Assembly: GCA_026710155.1 (NCBI GenBank)
Contig: JAPORQ010000078.1
Coordinates: 1 to 55,534 of the forward strand
DNA length: 55,534 nt
Direction of reading: 5' to 3'
DNA from: Paracoccaceae bacterium
Lineage (GTDB): Bacteria > Pseudomonadota > Alphaproteobacteria > Rhodobacterales > Rhodobacteraceae
The notes under the pieces: generated by a model
Told to the model about the DNA's origin: nothing
The model's input: the letters and a program-made list of their open reading frames with translations, nothing else
Database searches by the model: none
In this document: positions 10,222 to 43,444 of the stretch, in pieces
Layout: every line of letters starts with the position of its first letter
Numbering within the stretch: the stretch's first letter is position 1
Translations under genes and position numbers: made by a program

Positions 10222-10389
10222 GGATTATATACTTAAGTGACCATTGCAGGATCTAACCTGCTTTTGTTTTGGATTTTGCTTATGCCAATATCGAGTTGAT
10301 TTTGGTTCGGCTTTCAACAAAGGTCTCGTTAACATTGATGATTCACAGTTTTTCAAATTTGAAAGAATGGTCACTTAAGTATATAATCC
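10222..10389. repeat. 168-bp MITE-like element with 24-bp perfect inverted repeats
   Basis: Bases 10222-10245 and 10366-10389 are perfect inverted complements, beginning GGATTATATACTTAAGTGAC. The interior holds no open frame of note. The TTATATAC core is shared with the elements at 4352 and 42799, while the rest of the arm is different. The element lies in the 475-bp gap between the TusA-like gene and the Uma2-like gene. A stem of this length would also fold strongly if transcribed. Confidence 0.8.
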
Positions 10390-10522
10390 CCTTTCTTACG
10401 GAAAGAAATGAGGCAGATCAACTATGGATATTATGTTAGTGAAAGCTTAATGGAAATGGTATAATGCCAATCATATTTTAAATATGAGCTTTGAAGTAAA
10501 CATAAACTGATTACCGGATGTC

Positions 10523-35733: not shown

Positions 35734-36498
35734 TCAACAGGCCAATACATTGACCAATTCACCACGATTCGACCACTGTATAGGATGCACTTGATAATTT
35801 CTTATCGCATCCACAACGTTATAGGAAACAGTTTTTTCAGAGTCGTTTAGGATTGCATAGGCACAAGCATCAGGGGAACGAACTTCTTTGATGTCGATCC
35901 AAGAAAATGCCATCACTTGCGCGGCATTGCGATCCGGATGATTAATGACTTTCAGGATGCGTTCAGGCTGTTTTTTCGATTTTGGTATGACAAAGTCAAA
36001 ACGATAATCATAACCGCTCTTGCCAGTGAATTTGACATTTTGTGTATAGCGGATATCGGAAATATCTAGCCAATCAGCCACATCATCGTTAAACAGGTTG
36101 GTAAAAATGGGTGTGGCTAGATAGAAGAGATCGTTTACAGTTAGCATTGCCTGCACAAGGCTGTGCTTTTTTAAAGAAAAATTATTTTGAGTTACCTTTA
36201 TCTCTAGAGCCCCTTCATTCTCTTTTACACCTTGGCCATTAAGTATGGCATGAAGCATGGATTTTCGCTTGGGACTGTCTATTTTGCAACCAGATAGCTC
36301 CAAATCATCTAGTATATATCCATCATCCGTCAGAACAAAACCATCATTTGTGTTCTTGGCATAAATCTGCAGGTAATCATTATGTCGGTCTAAATATGGT
36401 GTGGTTATTTCGACGTAGTCTTCAACTTCACGAATTTTCGTTCGGTCTTTAAGCCAAGCCGAGTAACTGTCCAAAAGTGCCTGTATATTATTTATCAT
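35734..36498 (-). CDS. DUF1828/DUF1829-type protein
   Basis: The 254-residue product has an N-terminal DUF1828 part (about residues 10-110, with [15 protein letters not shown] and [17 protein letters not shown]) and a C-terminal DUF1829-like part. Function is unknown. Its ATG overlaps the stop of the upstream gene as ATGA (36495-36498), so the two are translationally coupled. The paired arrangement, small size and accessory location suggest a mobile toxin-antitoxin- or defence-like module. That is inference only. Confidence 0.75.
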
Positions 36499-38611: not shown

Positions 38612-38765
38612 ATACTAATGGAAACCATTCTTGTCAACCATATCACGAGCAGGATTATCAATTTTCCAATGATGGTCCACCCACTGTCATCATCCAAAGG
38701 GATAAACTCTACCAAAGGATTACTCACATTTCACCTCCCAACATGCTCGGTCACTTAATGGTTAT

Positions 38766-39372
38766 AATTTTGGGGCTTATAAAGACGGGTTGACAATGAA
38801 TCAACCCACCAGTTTGTCAAGATGGTGTTCAAACTGCCTCTGCCTCAATTCGATTTCCCTGGTTAATTCCTCCCGCAATCAAGTTTTCCGACAATCCCCA
38901 CCTGTTTCTCGATGGGAGGGGTGCTGATTCCAGGATTTGCAAGAACCGCTTTCCGAAGCATCGGAATGGCATGTCCTCTTCCTGGTCGGGATGACATGAG
39001 AATTCCCTGTCTCTGCCTCAAATACATGAAACAGATGTTTTGTCGTAACACCGGGCGTTTTCGACTGTCACAACAAAACAATGCCCCCTCCCTGCCGAAA
39101 ACCAGATTGACATGAAATGCACATGGCCCGCCGATGCACCGCCACGGCTCATGGCAATGGAATCCGGCTCGGCGTTGAATTGATTGTGACATCCAGATGG
39201 CTTGACCCACCCCCCGTTCATGACAGGATATTCCCCGTCATGGCCATGGAGGATTTATTCAACGGGGTTCCAATACGGATTTGTGGCATCTTCGGGTTTC
39301 ATCAGGCGGGATGGTTCAGATCGGGAGAAAATTGCAAATCTATCAGCCCGTCTTTATAGACCCCATAATTTC
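38766..39372 (-). mobile_element. Inverted-repeat-bounded cassette A carrying a half-HsdS gene
   Basis: Imperfect inverted repeats at 38766-38793 (ATTTTGGGGCTTATAAAGAC) and 39344-39372 (complement ATTATGGGGTCTATAAAGAC) bracket a decayed half-hsdS on the minus strand. The core, including about 30 bp before the start codon, is homologous to cassette B at 42799-43444, which is in the opposite orientation. No transposase is encoded. It lies 320 bp upstream of gltA, beside a sequence like the arm of the 10222 element. Confidence 0.65.
38801..39302 (-). pseudogene. Decayed half-HsdS (one target-recognition domain plus spacer)
   Basis: Read from ATG 39302 on the minus strand, the sequence matches one half of a type I restriction specificity subunit. 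The TRD block (MNGGWVKPSGCHNQFN then SIAMSRGGASAGHVHF) and the following LRQRQGILMSS...RKAVLANPGISTPPIEKQ are in different frames. The conserved spacer helix ELTREIELRQRQFEHHLDK needs one more frame. Several frameshifts and an early stop (after MKPEDATNPYWNPVE) inactivate it. It is more decayed than its relative at 42887. Confidence 0.75.
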
Positions 39373-39521
39373 CAAGCTATCGTAATTAATTTCAATCCTA
39401 AAAATTGAAAATGTTATGCCCTTATGCAGATTATCCCGTCAATTAAGTAGGAAAATTATCCCGGAGTATAATTTTCTTTACGCTAGAAGATTCCTTATCC
39501 AATACCATTTTCCATTGAAGG

Positions 39522-40307
39522 TTAGAATTCTTCCACATGCTGAAATAAGTCTTTATAGGAGCCTTGCTTGAGACGGAATTTTGTACCATGATTGTGACCG
39601 GTTCGGGCATCAAAATCTATTTGTATTGCGCCATTATCCATACAATTTATCAACCTATTCTCGCAGATGCCTTCAAGCATGAAAAAACGGGAATACTTGA
39701 ATTGTTCGATGTCGTCATAATTCCTCCTATCCGCAATAGCATATATAGTTTTGTTGAGTTTGTTCCTTACCTTTTTATGAAGGTTTTCAAAACTCCATGA
39801 TGGCTTGGGATCAAGCTCATTCAAACCAACAATTTCCTTTATGGTTTGCAACCACTTGCCATGCTTTTTAGTACAAACATGATTATGGTCAAATGAAATC
39901 TCTATACGCTTACAATCGTAGTTTACCAATGCTGTGAATCCCCTGTCAGTTCTTTGACCTATTGTTATTGTCTGTCGGAAACTCTTTTCGTTGATATCAT
40001 ATTTCCCACCGGCCTCTATATGCGGCCATCCGTATTTAGGCAGTAAGACTGAGGATACAAAATTTTGTTCTCTTGGGTATGGTTCCATATGAAATAGTGT
40101 AATGAGTGAAGAGGTATCAGAACGTTGGCCCTTGAGTTCCCACTCGCCAGCATCAGGTATTTGTAGATTGTTCTCTTCAATACCTAACAAATCCTCAAGA
40201 GTATTACCCACTCCACCATCATTGCCTGGTCGTCTAGTCGTAATCCAGCCACTAGCTCGTATTTGGTTCAATTTAGATTTTAGGGACTGTATAGTAAATT
40301 CGTTCAT
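39522..40307 (-). CDS. MvaI/BcnI-family type II restriction endonuclease
   Basis: The 261-residue protein shows the hallmark N-terminal block TRRPGNDGGVGNTLEDLLGI (residues 24-43) of the MvaI/BcnI family. The catalytic acid/lysine set is Asp52...Glu57-x-Lys59 in PDAGEWELKG. Characterised members cut CCWGG (MvaI) or CCSGG (BcnI) as monomers; the target here is inferred to be a CCNGG-like site and is unproven. Its ATG shares one base with the methyltransferase stop (TAATG at 40307), so it is translated after the methylase. No truncation is visible. Confidence 0.88.
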   Translation of the reverse strand: MNEFTIQSLKSKLNQIRASGWITTRRPGNDGGVGNTLEDLLGIEENNLQIPDAGEWELKGQRSDTSSLITLFHMEPYPREQNFVSSVLLPKYGWPHIEAGGKYDINEKSFRQTITIGQRTDRGFTALVNYDCKRIEISFDHNHVCTKKHGKWLQTIKEIVGLNELDPKPSWSFENLHKKVRNKLNKTIYAIADRRNYDDIEQFKYSRFFMLEGICENRLINCMDNGAIQIDFDARTGHNHGTKFRLKQGSYKDLFQHVEEF

Positions 40308-41281
40308 TAATCAGGTTTCCAGAAATGCAACAAATATTCAAAAGTTACACCCATTGTTATATAATTGCTTGGCCACCCAAAGATCCCAATCCGGTTTACG
40401 ATGTTTCGCCGGTCCCATATGATGATATTCCTGAGTTCGTAACCTCGTCTTCGCATTTCCTCAATTAGGGAAACATGTATAGTGATGCGTTCATTCTCCC
40501 ACCACATATCAGGTACGTTTATGACGCAGTGTCCCTTGGGACGAAGTAAAGGTAGTAAATTTTCAAATATCTCACCCATATTATTGGTATATGTTTCCAA
40601 CGGCATTGTACCCAAATCACGCGGATTCTGGGAATACTGTTCAACTATCCCTAATTGACTATTCTTTCGAACTCGCCTGGATTTATTTTTGCGTTTCCGG
40701 TTCAGTAGATTCGCATAGGGTGGTGATGTGACGATCAAAGATACCGTTTCGGGCGCAAGATATTGGTTAATTTGCCGTGCGTCACACTCGATTGCCAATT
40801 GCTTATGAGACTGAAATAGGCTTGTGCCAAGTCTTTCCTTGCATAATTCCACATATTTTGGCGACAGGTCAAAACCAACAGCGTTCCTCTCAGAGTCCTG
40901 TGCAGCAATTAGGGTAGATCCACTTCCTACAAATGGATCTATCACCAATTCACCTTTGTGGGTAAATTGCTCTATCAAGCGGCGAGGGAGTGCGATTGGG
41001 AAAGTTGCAGGGTGAACGGATTTGTCCCTTAAATCTCGCTTTTCGTAATAAAATTCCCAAACTCCAAGTTGATTCTTGAGCCATTCTTTCGCAGAAAGAC
41101 AACAAATATGACTTGGTTTGCAGTCACAGATTCTCGTTGTTCCAATGTCAATGAATGATTTTTTATTAACCTGGGGTTGTTCAGAAATCTCACTTTGCGT
41201 ACGATCTTCTTGTTCGAATAATGAGGCGATCCCTTCTTGACTTTCACTGCCAGAACATAATTTTGTATTTTTCAAGCTCAC
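40307..41281 (-). CDS. DNA methyltransferase of the MvaI/BcnI-type R-M pair (N4-cytosine likely)
   Basis: This 324-residue enzyme protects host DNA from the partner nuclease. The motif X-like HPATFPIALP is at residues 90-99, the AdoMet-binding motif I DPFVGSGST at 115-123 and the catalytic motif IV TSPPY at 185-189. A motif VIII-like IIIWDRRN lies near 290. SPPY-type motif IV is typical of N4-cytosine methylases, consistent with a CCNGG-type target. The motif order X-I-IV-VIII differs from the beta-class order IV-VIII-X-I. The cysteine-rich segment CDCKPSHICC (53-61) is unusual. It is the first gene of the pair, with a 780-bp repeat-rich region upstream. Confidence 0.9.
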   Translation of the reverse strand: MSLKNTKLCSGSESQEGIASLFEQEDRTQSEISEQPQVNKKSFIDIGTTRICDCKPSHICCLSAKEWLKNQLGVWEFYYEKRDLRDKSVHPATFPIALPRRLIEQFTHKGELVIDPFVGSGSTLIAAQDSERNAVGFDLSPKYVELCKERLGTSLFQSHKQLAIECDARQINQYLAPETVSLIVTSPPYANLLNRKRKNKSRRVRKNSQLGIVEQYSQNPRDLGTMPLETYTNNMGEIFENLLPLLRPKGHCVINVPDMWWENERITIHVSLIEEMRRRGYELRNIIIWDRRNIVNRIGIFGWPSNYITMGVTFEYLLHFWKPD

Positions 41282-41372
41282 TTTTTTTATTAACTCATTG
41301 CATGGTAAAAAATCCTATAAAATGATTTACCGTGTTGGTTTCTAAACTTTATTAGTTACATATTTCTTTATA

Positions 41373-41516
41373 AGAGCCTGCTCCATAAGTCAAAAAATGT
41401 AGCAAATTCAATACATTTTCAGACAAAAAACCATTATTGGTTCCAAAATCAACTCTGAATTTTAGATCAAGCAGCATCATTTTAATTTTTTTTGACTTAT
41501 GTATGATTCAGGCTCT
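41373..41516. repeat. Small MITE-like inverted-repeat element
   Basis: Left end AGAGCCTG at 41373 with ATAAGTCAAAAAA at 41385-41397 is mirrored at the right by TTTTTTGACTTAT (to 41500) and CAGGCTCT at 41509-41516. The two parts of each arm are spaced 4 and 8 bp apart. The element has no gene. It differs in arm sequence from the TTATATAC group, so it is probably a separate family. Confidence 0.55.
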
Positions 41517-41568
41517 AAGATATGCATTTGTTGGTAAGTATATAGTTTATCCGTTTTGAAATCTATTG

Positions 41569-41742
41569 GTAACTATTCAGGTATGGAACTTGTCAATATA
41601 TCGAAATTCAGTACACTTTTTGTCTGTATCTTGAAGGTTTTGGAATTTTAAAGACAACAATTTAATGGATTTTGTAAAAAATTATATTGGGGAATTCCGA
41701 TTCAATCTTTTTTCAGGGCACCTGGGATATCTGAATAGTTAC
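41569..41742. repeat. Second small inverted-repeat element
   Basis: GTAACTATTCAG at 41569-41580 is perfectly complementary to CTGAATAGTTAC at 41731-41742, with further matching bases inward (TAT). The outward complement ATACCTGAATAGT resembles ATACCTGACTAGT in the 4352 element. The interior has no gene. A lone TTATATACTCAAGG at about 41771 may be the end of yet another element. Confidence 0.5.
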
Positions 41743-41805
41743 TATTTTTCGTGAACTCCCGAAGACCGTTTTATATACTCAAGGTACCGTAAGGGCATTT
41801 TGTGA

Positions 41806-41943
41806 ATGTATCGCCTGCCAATTGATCATCATGTTTATGATGTTGGACAGTCAAGGGACTTCTTTCGAGGAACACTTCGAGTGGTTTCCGACCCCAATGT
41901 GCTAAGGGAAGCTAATGCTAAAGGGAAAATATTCGATTGGTGA
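41806..41943 (+). other. 45-codon open frame, doubtful
   Basis: An ATG at 41806 opens 45 codons ending in TGA. The product is hydrophilic with a plausible composition (RDFFRGTLRVVSDPNVLREA), but there is no ribosome site and no family I know. It may be a fragment of a lost gene in this repeat-rich spacer. Confidence 0.25.
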
Positions 41944-42060
41944 GGGATTTGGTTGTTTTTATAATTCTTGCTTCACTTCAATATGGTTAGGACAAGATTA
42001 TAAACAATAATTGTTGTGGCAAATAGAAACAAAGATAATATCAGTTTTAAGGATTAAATC

Positions 42061-42570
42061 ATGGAAACTGACCAGAATAGCTCAATAACCGATACCACAT
42101 ACCAATCTGTTTGGGATGGCCTTTTGGAAGTATCCAGAGCCAGATATTACTATGAGGATCGTGAACATTCACTTTCGTGGCGTGCAGAGTCCCTGAGATT
42201 TGCATTGGCATTAGCTGGTGTAGGTGCAATGGCCTCACTGTTTGAATATTTTGAACAAATAGGTCCATATGCTGGTATTGCGATGGTTGCCCTGGTCATT
42301 ATTGACCTTTTATGGAATGATACTACCCGACTAGCACAACTCAAGCTGGTAAACCATGATTTGTCTACCTTGGAAACCAAGTATCGCGATATCTGGGAAA
42401 AAACACGAAATGGGTCTATCTCCGATGAGGAGGCACAAACCAGTAAACAGGTACTACTCAAAAGTTTGAACCGGATCACTGCAGATGTTGATGTAATGGC
42501 CACCCGGAAAACAAGAAAAAAGATACAGGAATACGCTTTCGAGGCTGAGGTAAAGCGCTATGCCGGATAA
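42061..42570 (+). CDS. Two-helix membrane protein of unknown function (SLATT-like layout)
   Basis: This 169-residue protein has a short hydrophilic N-terminus (1-42) and two closely spaced transmembrane helices (about 45-62 and 71-87). A charged, probably helical cytoplasmic domain (90-169) follows. This layout recalls SLATT-domain proteins, which act as membrane effectors in some bacterial defence systems, but no sequence motif proves it. The ATG is at 42061. It sits between a restriction-modification pair and an HsdS cassette, on the opposite strand to the former, with its own promoter region. Function is unknown and the defence link rests on context. Confidence 0.65.
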   Translation: METDQNSSITDTTYQSVWDGLLEVSRARYYYEDREHSLSWRAESLRFALALAGVGAMASLFEYFEQIGPYAGIAMVALVIIDLLWNDTTRLAQLKLVNHDLSTLETKYRDIWEKTRNGSISDEEAQTSKQVLLKSLNRITADVDVMATRKTRKKIQEYAFEAEVKRYAG

Positions 42571-42724
42571 TTAACTTCCAATCAAACAATGCAAAAGGGA
42601 TCACTGCAAAGAGTACCATCCCAGCACCTCCTAAGCCTACTGAACAAAAAAAGTCTAATTTTTTTCCAGTTGAATAATGGCATTTGGATCGTTTGGGATC
42701 TTTTATTGGGTATTATTCACATTC

Positions 42725-42778
42725 CTATGAAATAACCGAAAGAGGCTGAAAAATAAGTCAAAATTGATATACTTGAAA
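42725..42778 (+). repeat. Dispersed repeat, copy 1 (matches 55352-55407)
   Basis: About 54 bp here match 55352-55407 with scattered substitutions; shared blocks include AACCGAA, GGCTG, AAAA and TATAC. It lies just outside cassette B. It could be an extragenic repeat or the end of a small element. Confidence 0.5.
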
Positions 42779-42798
42779 GACAAAGGATCACTAAAGTT

Positions 42799-43444
42799 AG
42801 GGAATTATATACATAAATAAAATGGGGATTGCATATTTGATTAAGCAGGTTTGCAATTTTCCTCCCGATCCGGATAATCCCACCTGATGAAACTTGGGAA
42901 TGTCGCAGATATCAGGATCGGAACCCAGTTGAACAAAGCCTACATGGTCATGACGGGGGAGTATCCTGTCATGAATGGAGGTATCAAGCCATCCGACCGT
43001 CACAATCAATTCAACGCCGAATGTGATTCCATTGCCATTAGCCAGGGCGGTGCATCGGCCGGCCATGTGAATTTCATGCCAATTCGGTTTTGGGCAGGAG
43101 CCCATTGTTTTGTTGCCGCGTCGAAAAATCCTGATGTCATGACAAAACACCCATGTATTGAAGAAGAGGCAGGGAATTCTCACGGCTTCCCAATCGGGAA
43201 GGGGCCATGTCATTCCGGGGCTTCGGAAGGCGGTTCTTGAAAATCTAGAAATCAGTACTCCCCCCTCCCATCGAGGAACAGGCGGGGATTGTTGAACGAC
43301 TGGATTGTTGGCAGGAATTGACGAGGGAAATCGAATTGAGGCAGAGGCAGTTTGAATTCCATCTTGACAAACTGGTGGATTGATCTCTTCATGTGTGTAT
43401 ACCCAAGTATGCAATCCCCATTTTATTTATGTATATAATTCCCT
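42799..43444 (+). mobile_element. Inverted-repeat-bounded cassette B carrying a half-HsdS gene
   Basis: Bases 42799-42835 and 43408-43444 form a perfect 37-bp terminal inverted repeat beginning AGGGAATTATATACATAAAT. Between them lies only a half-hsdS relic. The right arm supplies the last codons and stop of a minus-strand gene (43427-43747), so the element inserted into or next to that gene. Such a perfect repeat suggests insertion not long ago. No transposase is encoded. Confidence 0.8.
42887..43383 (+). pseudogene. Frameshifted half-HsdS (type I specificity subunit half)
   Basis: From ATG 42887 the frame reads MKLGNVADIRIGTQLNKA, GEYPVMNGGIKPSDRHNQ and SIAISQGGASAGHVNF, then FWAGAHCFVAAS, the classic first target-recognition-domain pattern of HsdS. 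Near 43155 the homology moves frame (LKKRQGILTAS then HVIPGLRKAVLENLEISTPP). At a C6 run near 43260 it moves again (IEEQAGIVERLD then ELTREIELRQRQFEFHLDKLVD, stop 43381-43383). A complete version would be about 165 residues, half the usual HsdS. Half-size subunits can work as dimers, so the ancestor may have been functional. Two frameshifts inactivate this copy. There is no hsdM or hsdR in the window. Confidence 0.82.

Follow-up and report, generated by a model that had tools for sequence, protein, structure and literature searches.

Two decayed half-HsdS cassettes in a Paracoccaceae genome are very probably copies of non-autonomous IS1595-type elements

The specificity subunit of type I restriction–modification systems, HsdS, is not catalytic alone, and half-HsdS subunits can dimerise; the half-HsdS form of EcoDXXI reportedly came from a Tn5 insertion or truncation. 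Mobile insertion cassettes (MICs) and miniature inverted-repeat transposable elements (MITEs) are derivatives in which the ends of an insertion sequence (IS) enclose a passenger gene or a short non-coding core, without a transposase. Here we analyse a stretch of 55,534 nucleotides from a Paracoccaceae bacterium (GCA_026710155.1, contig JAPORQ010000078.1; hereafter the window), in which two inverted-repeat-bounded cassettes, A and B, each with the remnant of a half-HsdS, lie in opposite orientation around an MvaI/BcnI-type restriction–modification pair, an arrangement already recognised in a preliminary description of this DNA. Passenger genes are a known trait of the IS1595 family according to PMC11891212, which credits Siguier et al. 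2009 with tIS, the passenger-carrying members. In Lactococcus and its relatives, orphan hsdS genes on plasmids and islands, without hsdM or hsdR of their own, recombine with other type I systems and widen restriction specificity (PMC13335696), and the pneumococcal tvr cassettes sit together at a single hsd locus, where a recombinase shuffles them (PMC6265443).

We conclude that A and B are very probably decayed copies of non-autonomous IS1595-type elements with hsdS, or half of it, as passenger. Features of the IS1595 family that recur in this genome are the PF12762 transposase, terminal repeats starting with GG and A+T-rich 8-bp duplications, whereas the hsdS elements have no transposase of their own and differ in carrying hsdS. 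With MICs and MITEs they share IS ends, a passenger and the absence of a transposase, but the MIC passengers in the reports we found are often quinolone-resistance genes, not a type I specificity subunit as here. Like the orphan genes of Lactococcus, this hsdS is without its own hsdM and hsdR; unlike them, it forms a repeat family in which all readable halves are broken, and no fitting hsdM was found. That a single recognition domain can be a unit is also seen in EcoDXXI and tvr, neither of which is dispersed by IS ends.

The genome to which the window belongs is a 3.13-Mb draft of 83 contigs that is 98% complete; C-numbers below denote its contigs unless a relative (G-number) is named, and L-numbers denote individual loci. 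One copy, at C70:54511-55677, is intact. It has both repeats, the duplication AAAAATTC and an open frame for an HsdS of 355 residues with two Methylase_S (PF01420) stretches (E 1.3e-39), and neither hsdM nor hsdR is among the frames of at least 130 residues in the 8 kb read around it. The hallmarks of a MIC, namely IS ends, no transposase and a coding passenger, are all present at C70; A and B have a broken passenger. The search for further copies that the preliminary description had proposed yielded 53 places with hsdS-derived sequence within the parts of the genome that were retrieved. The count is based on hsdS bodies without repeats, and some of the places are opposite ends of a single copy that the assembly has divided. 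Cassette B as a DNA query gave 50 matches. Copies range from the full 1167-bp element on C70, through halves of about 550–870 bp, to cores of about 220–370 bp.

The terminal repeats are of two types, type 1 at B and type 2 at A, and neither is confined to the two cassettes, a possibility the preliminary description had left standing. The type-1 repeat (GGGGATTATATACTTG, at most 2 mismatches) has 157 matches in the genome against 1 for the reversed control, and the type-2 repeat (at most 3 mismatches) has 25 against none. Among eight genus relatives, type 1 has 170 matches in seven genomes (8 for controls; the weakest case, G007, has 8 against 2) and type 2 a single match. In a tree of nine hsdS bodies, the type-2 copy on C32 groups with the type-1 copy on C39, of which one end is left (support 0.97), and A groups with the type-1 copies on C70 and C59 (support 0.73). 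Because the tree mixes copies of both types, the terminal repeats have probably been exchanged among hsdS bodies, and its branching suggests that this happened more than once. Pairs of type-1 repeats about 181 bp apart also occur on C29, C51, C54, C55, C70, C78 and C82, one of them nested within the IS1595 copy on C51; these are probably a recent MITE family.

We looked at 38 clusters for paired ends and target-site duplications, and 20 had paired ends. Exact 8-bp flanks border five of the 20 (C70, C23, two on C25, and C48); A matches at 7 of 8 positions, C32 at 6 of 8, and the remaining 13, including B, at no more than 5. In 380 mismatched pairings used as a control, none reached 8 of 8 and 8 reached at least 7. 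On C7 we preferred the pairing whose repeats agree better (flanks 1/8), although a lower-ranked pairing had flanks matching at 8/8. Five contigs start or stop in one identical cassette 3′ end, and four do so in a 5′ end that belongs to a single lineage. Every 5′ flank among these four is identical over all 8 bases to exactly one of the five 3′ flanks (other pairings, at most 5/8), and the contig ends of C44 and C12 likewise pair at 8/8 (AATAGATT), making five pairs across contig ends in all. No matching partner was seen for the contig ends of C76, C77, C60 and C41, and that of C42 escaped the script. The duplications that the preliminary description suggested looking for are thus present, with none for B.

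A candidate source of transposase is also present. The genome has 16 stretches that match PF12762 (IS1595/ISXO2-like transposase), and open IS1595 transposase frames are among its genes. Four of the 14 transposase loci examined have paired ends with exact 8-bp duplications; the remaining ten have no convincing ends within 1.5 kb. Type-1 ends bound transposase elements at C10:2776-5152 and C51:22135-23917 (the latter with a shifted frame), and close variants of them, with three mismatches by eye, bound those at C11:91-2414 and C64:25317-26583. The C10 and C11 transposase frames contain PF12762 and PF12760, and the first 19 bases of the C10 element are identical to those of the hsdS element on C70. 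In genus relatives, type-1 ends surround PF12762 transposases at L174, L176 and L182, and at L175 they enclose only a passenger such as a methyltransferase, without a transposase. Since type-1 ends surround PF12762 transposases, we read the hsdS elements as their non-autonomous relatives.

Some transposase elements have cargo of their own. The IS1595 element at C11:91-2414 (L363, L304) is complete: its ends are perfect and it has the duplication AAAAAAGA. Beside the transposase it encodes a D12 DNA methyltransferase and a PDDEXK_11 nuclease, and from these domain matches looks like a transposon with its own restriction–modification pair. At C10:2776-5152 (L364) and at G004:C66 (L188), the neighbour of the IS1595 transposase is a fusion of a DNA methylase with an HNH endonuclease domain, which may be a restriction–modification passenger in a single protein. 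Both type-1 repeats at L188 have the same orientation and so do not define the ends of that element.

Cassette A spans 38772-39364 from repeat to repeat, in minus sense, with 22-bp type-2 ends at 38772..38793 (plus strand, no mismatch to the type-2 pattern) and 39343..39364 (minus strand, 3 mismatches). The flanks ATAATTTT (38764..38771) and ATAATTTC (39365..39372), its 7/8 duplication, define its boundaries better than the ends first assigned to it. Its half-HsdS pseudogene (38801..39302, minus strand) holds one recognition domain and a spacer, with frameshifts and stops. Cassette B has an inner repeat pair (42824-43419) inside an outer pair (42800-43443): the left nested repeats lie at 42800..42839 on the plus strand (outer GGGAATTATATAC; inner GGGGATTGCATATTTG, at 42824) and the right ones at 43404..43443 on the minus strand (inner end 43419, outer end 43443). 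These ends are diverged type-1 members, with 2–3 mismatches each, and the longer outer repeat recurs at C73:61019. The half-HsdS pseudogene of B occupies 42887..43383 (plus strand), and its open part, 42887-43240, has one stretch matching Methylase_S (PF01420, E 8.6e-6). The preliminary description was right that both cassettes are decayed, as their stops and frameshifts show, and that their terminal repeats differ. The inverted repeat of B is 48 nt long at 92% identity. The half-HsdS bodies of A and B share 79.5% DNA identity, and the homology runs from about 40 bp before the ATG through the body to the stop.

Several observations weigh against an IS1595-type origin. The hsdS elements have repeats in common with transposase elements for type 1 and not for type 2, the type of cassette A, for which neither this genome nor the eight genus relatives yielded a transposase element. 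No paired ends were found in 18 of the 38 clusters, 14 of the 20 paired copies (B among them) match in at most 6 of 8 flank bases, and simple insertion does not account for the nested repeats of B. We infer that resident IS1595-family (ISXO2-like) transposases most likely read the type-1 repeats in trans, and the need for this step counts on the same side. Under the IS1595-type reading, transposase-less, MIC/MITE-like elements, inverted repeats around an hsdS gene or half of one, would insert into A+T-rich 8-bp targets, and type-2 copies such as A would move in the same way. Half forms may have arisen when the conserved regions, which are repeated within a full hsdS, recombined with each other, and the passenger would now be mostly dead freight.

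An alternative is that these are mobile specificity cassettes, kept because a full or half HsdS acts in trans to give a type I methyltransferase of this or another host a different target. We consider this quite improbable. In its favour, an intact full-length HsdS lies on an element with an exact duplication (C70), and two kinds of recognition domain occur between shared ends, one in A and B and the other in C23 and C25. The first domain of C70 and the half on C59 share 97% DNA identity, and the halves on C23 and C25 carry a domain like the second of C70 (48% and 50% protein identity). Because this second type of domain lies between the same ends, recognition domains seem, from these comparisons, to have been exchanged between elements. 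The ratio of non-synonymous to synonymous substitution rates (dN/dS) also gives a hint of selection: over 36 pairs of nine copies it ranges from 0.30 to 1.42 with a median of 0.58, and 7 pairs fall below 0.44, the 5% point of neutral simulation at kappa 4–6 (5% points overall, 0.44–0.51). However, these pairs are non-independent, 29 of the 36 lie at or above 0.44, and the neutral medians are themselves only 0.72–0.85.

The state of the halves also argues against retention for function. The preliminary description had called for intact half-HsdS cassettes, yet none of the 11 halves that were read end to end is open, a count that leaves aside copies truncated at the edge of a contig. The half on C10 has one stop, and that on C59 a frameshift after the domain. 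In the lineage found at contig ends, there is a stop at codon 8, read by eye, in three of the four 5′ ends, those that reach that far. This lineage, the most recently multiplied half, seems to have spread without a working protein; its interior is unassembled. The proposal of a mobile unit that spreads single recognition domains therefore holds in so far as hsdS pieces are dispersed apart from hsdM and hsdR, with exact duplications, and is unsupported for single domains as working cargo, since the sole intact copy has two domains and the halves are broken.

No fitting partner for the mobile HsdS was found in this draft genome either. The search for an hsdM/hsdR locus found a single hsdR-hsdS-hsdM locus, on C51, but its hsdM comes from another type I family. 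An HsdM was found beside C70-type HsdS in 71 of 80 loci of other species (a few of them near-duplicates, such as L226 and L227), and every one of these HsdMs scores better against that of G005:C54 (52–70%) than against that of C51 (35–44%). Neither of the frames behind the weaker N6_Mtase matches on C29, one Eco57I-like and the other about 1013 residues long, is HsdM-like. The mobile HsdS thus has no fitting hsdM partner in the sequence searched, and the specificity swap envisaged in the preliminary description is unsupported in this genome because its only hsdM belongs to another family.

We regard it as almost certainly wrong that one or more hsd loci were broken in place and acquired the inverted repeats by chance. 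The copies are indeed decayed, a type I locus exists on C51, and short hsdS cores lie at C51:34552-34614 and 36035-36230, 3–5 kb beyond its hsdM. However, the C51 HsdS is just 25% identical to the mobile HsdS, and the dispersed sites, genome-wide repeats and exact duplications do not fit; copy number and duplications also rule out that the half-HsdS pieces are remnants of a single broken locus. Phase variation, in which a site-specific recombinase would move the hsdS cassettes as in a shufflon, deserves virtually no credence: half-hsdS units with inverted repeats do look like those cassettes that type I loci with inversions contain, but no hsdM, hsdR or recombinase was recognised in the frames around A, B and C70 (partly scanned against Pfam), and such cassettes are ruled out by the dispersal of the sites and by the 8-bp duplications, which indicate a DDE transposase.

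The genes between the cassettes, an MvaI/BcnI-family restriction endonuclease (39522..40307, minus strand; PF15515, E 3.4e-51) and an N6_N4 DNA methyltransferase (40307..41281, minus strand; PF01555, E 1.9e-31), are bystanders. Cassettes and pair together lie in the gltA–gltX spacer, which is 5340 bp here against about 229–771 bp, measured between aligned ends, in seven of the eight genus relatives; in the eighth the locus is cut by its contig. The gene order gltA-gltX-moeA-moaC-trpC-trpD points to an alphaproteobacterium. A composite transposon of A, the pair and B is ruled out, because its two ends are of different repeat type and each type is also found elsewhere. The window has a further inverted-repeat element at 41370-41520 (AGAGCCTG...CATAAGTCAAAAAA), with a similar repeat again at 42740, and a DUF1828/DUF1829 protein at 35737-36498, upstream of the gltA-like gene. 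At 10222-10391 there is a MITE-like element of about 170 bp (ends GGATTATATACTTAAGTGACCATT and AATGGTCACTTAAGTATATAATCCCC), whose ends closely resemble those of the methyltransferase-bearing element of G005:C42 (L175).

We also looked for the element outside this genome. For L002 DNA, compared with 81 genomes including its own and with up to 6 candidates scored in each relative, the one match elsewhere was of 22 bases at an end, in G005, and C70 DNA, compared with 295 family genomes including its own, matched 7 others in internal hsdS stretches only (at most 2 candidates scored in each). A protein search of plasmids returned 218 records, none of which reached 60% identity; those listed, 15 in number, are annotated as restriction subunit S. 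Literature searches for hsdS with mobile insertion cassettes, miniature inverted repeats or IS1595, and broader ones, found no report of an hsdS passenger. The preliminary description knew of no element of this form; transposase-less IS derivatives with a passenger are in fact a known class, and what is apparently unreported, as far as these searches reach, is hsdS as the passenger.

These elements show that IS ends can capture a gene whose product needs other subunits to be of use, and that such a gene can be multiplied to some fifty places, largely as dead freight. IS1595-type elements of the genus carry DNA methyltransferases in several cases (C10, C11, L175 and L182). It is conceivable, though we think it unlikely, that such elements serve to carry type I specificity genes, bare of the other subunits, to new hosts, with an arriving element retargeting the methyltransferase wherever hsdM and hsdR match and recombination between half and full copies making new domain pairs. 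The C70 element provides one intact mobile HsdS on which this idea of transposable specificity could be tested; if it is true, an arriving element would give a methyltransferase a new target without a new enzyme.

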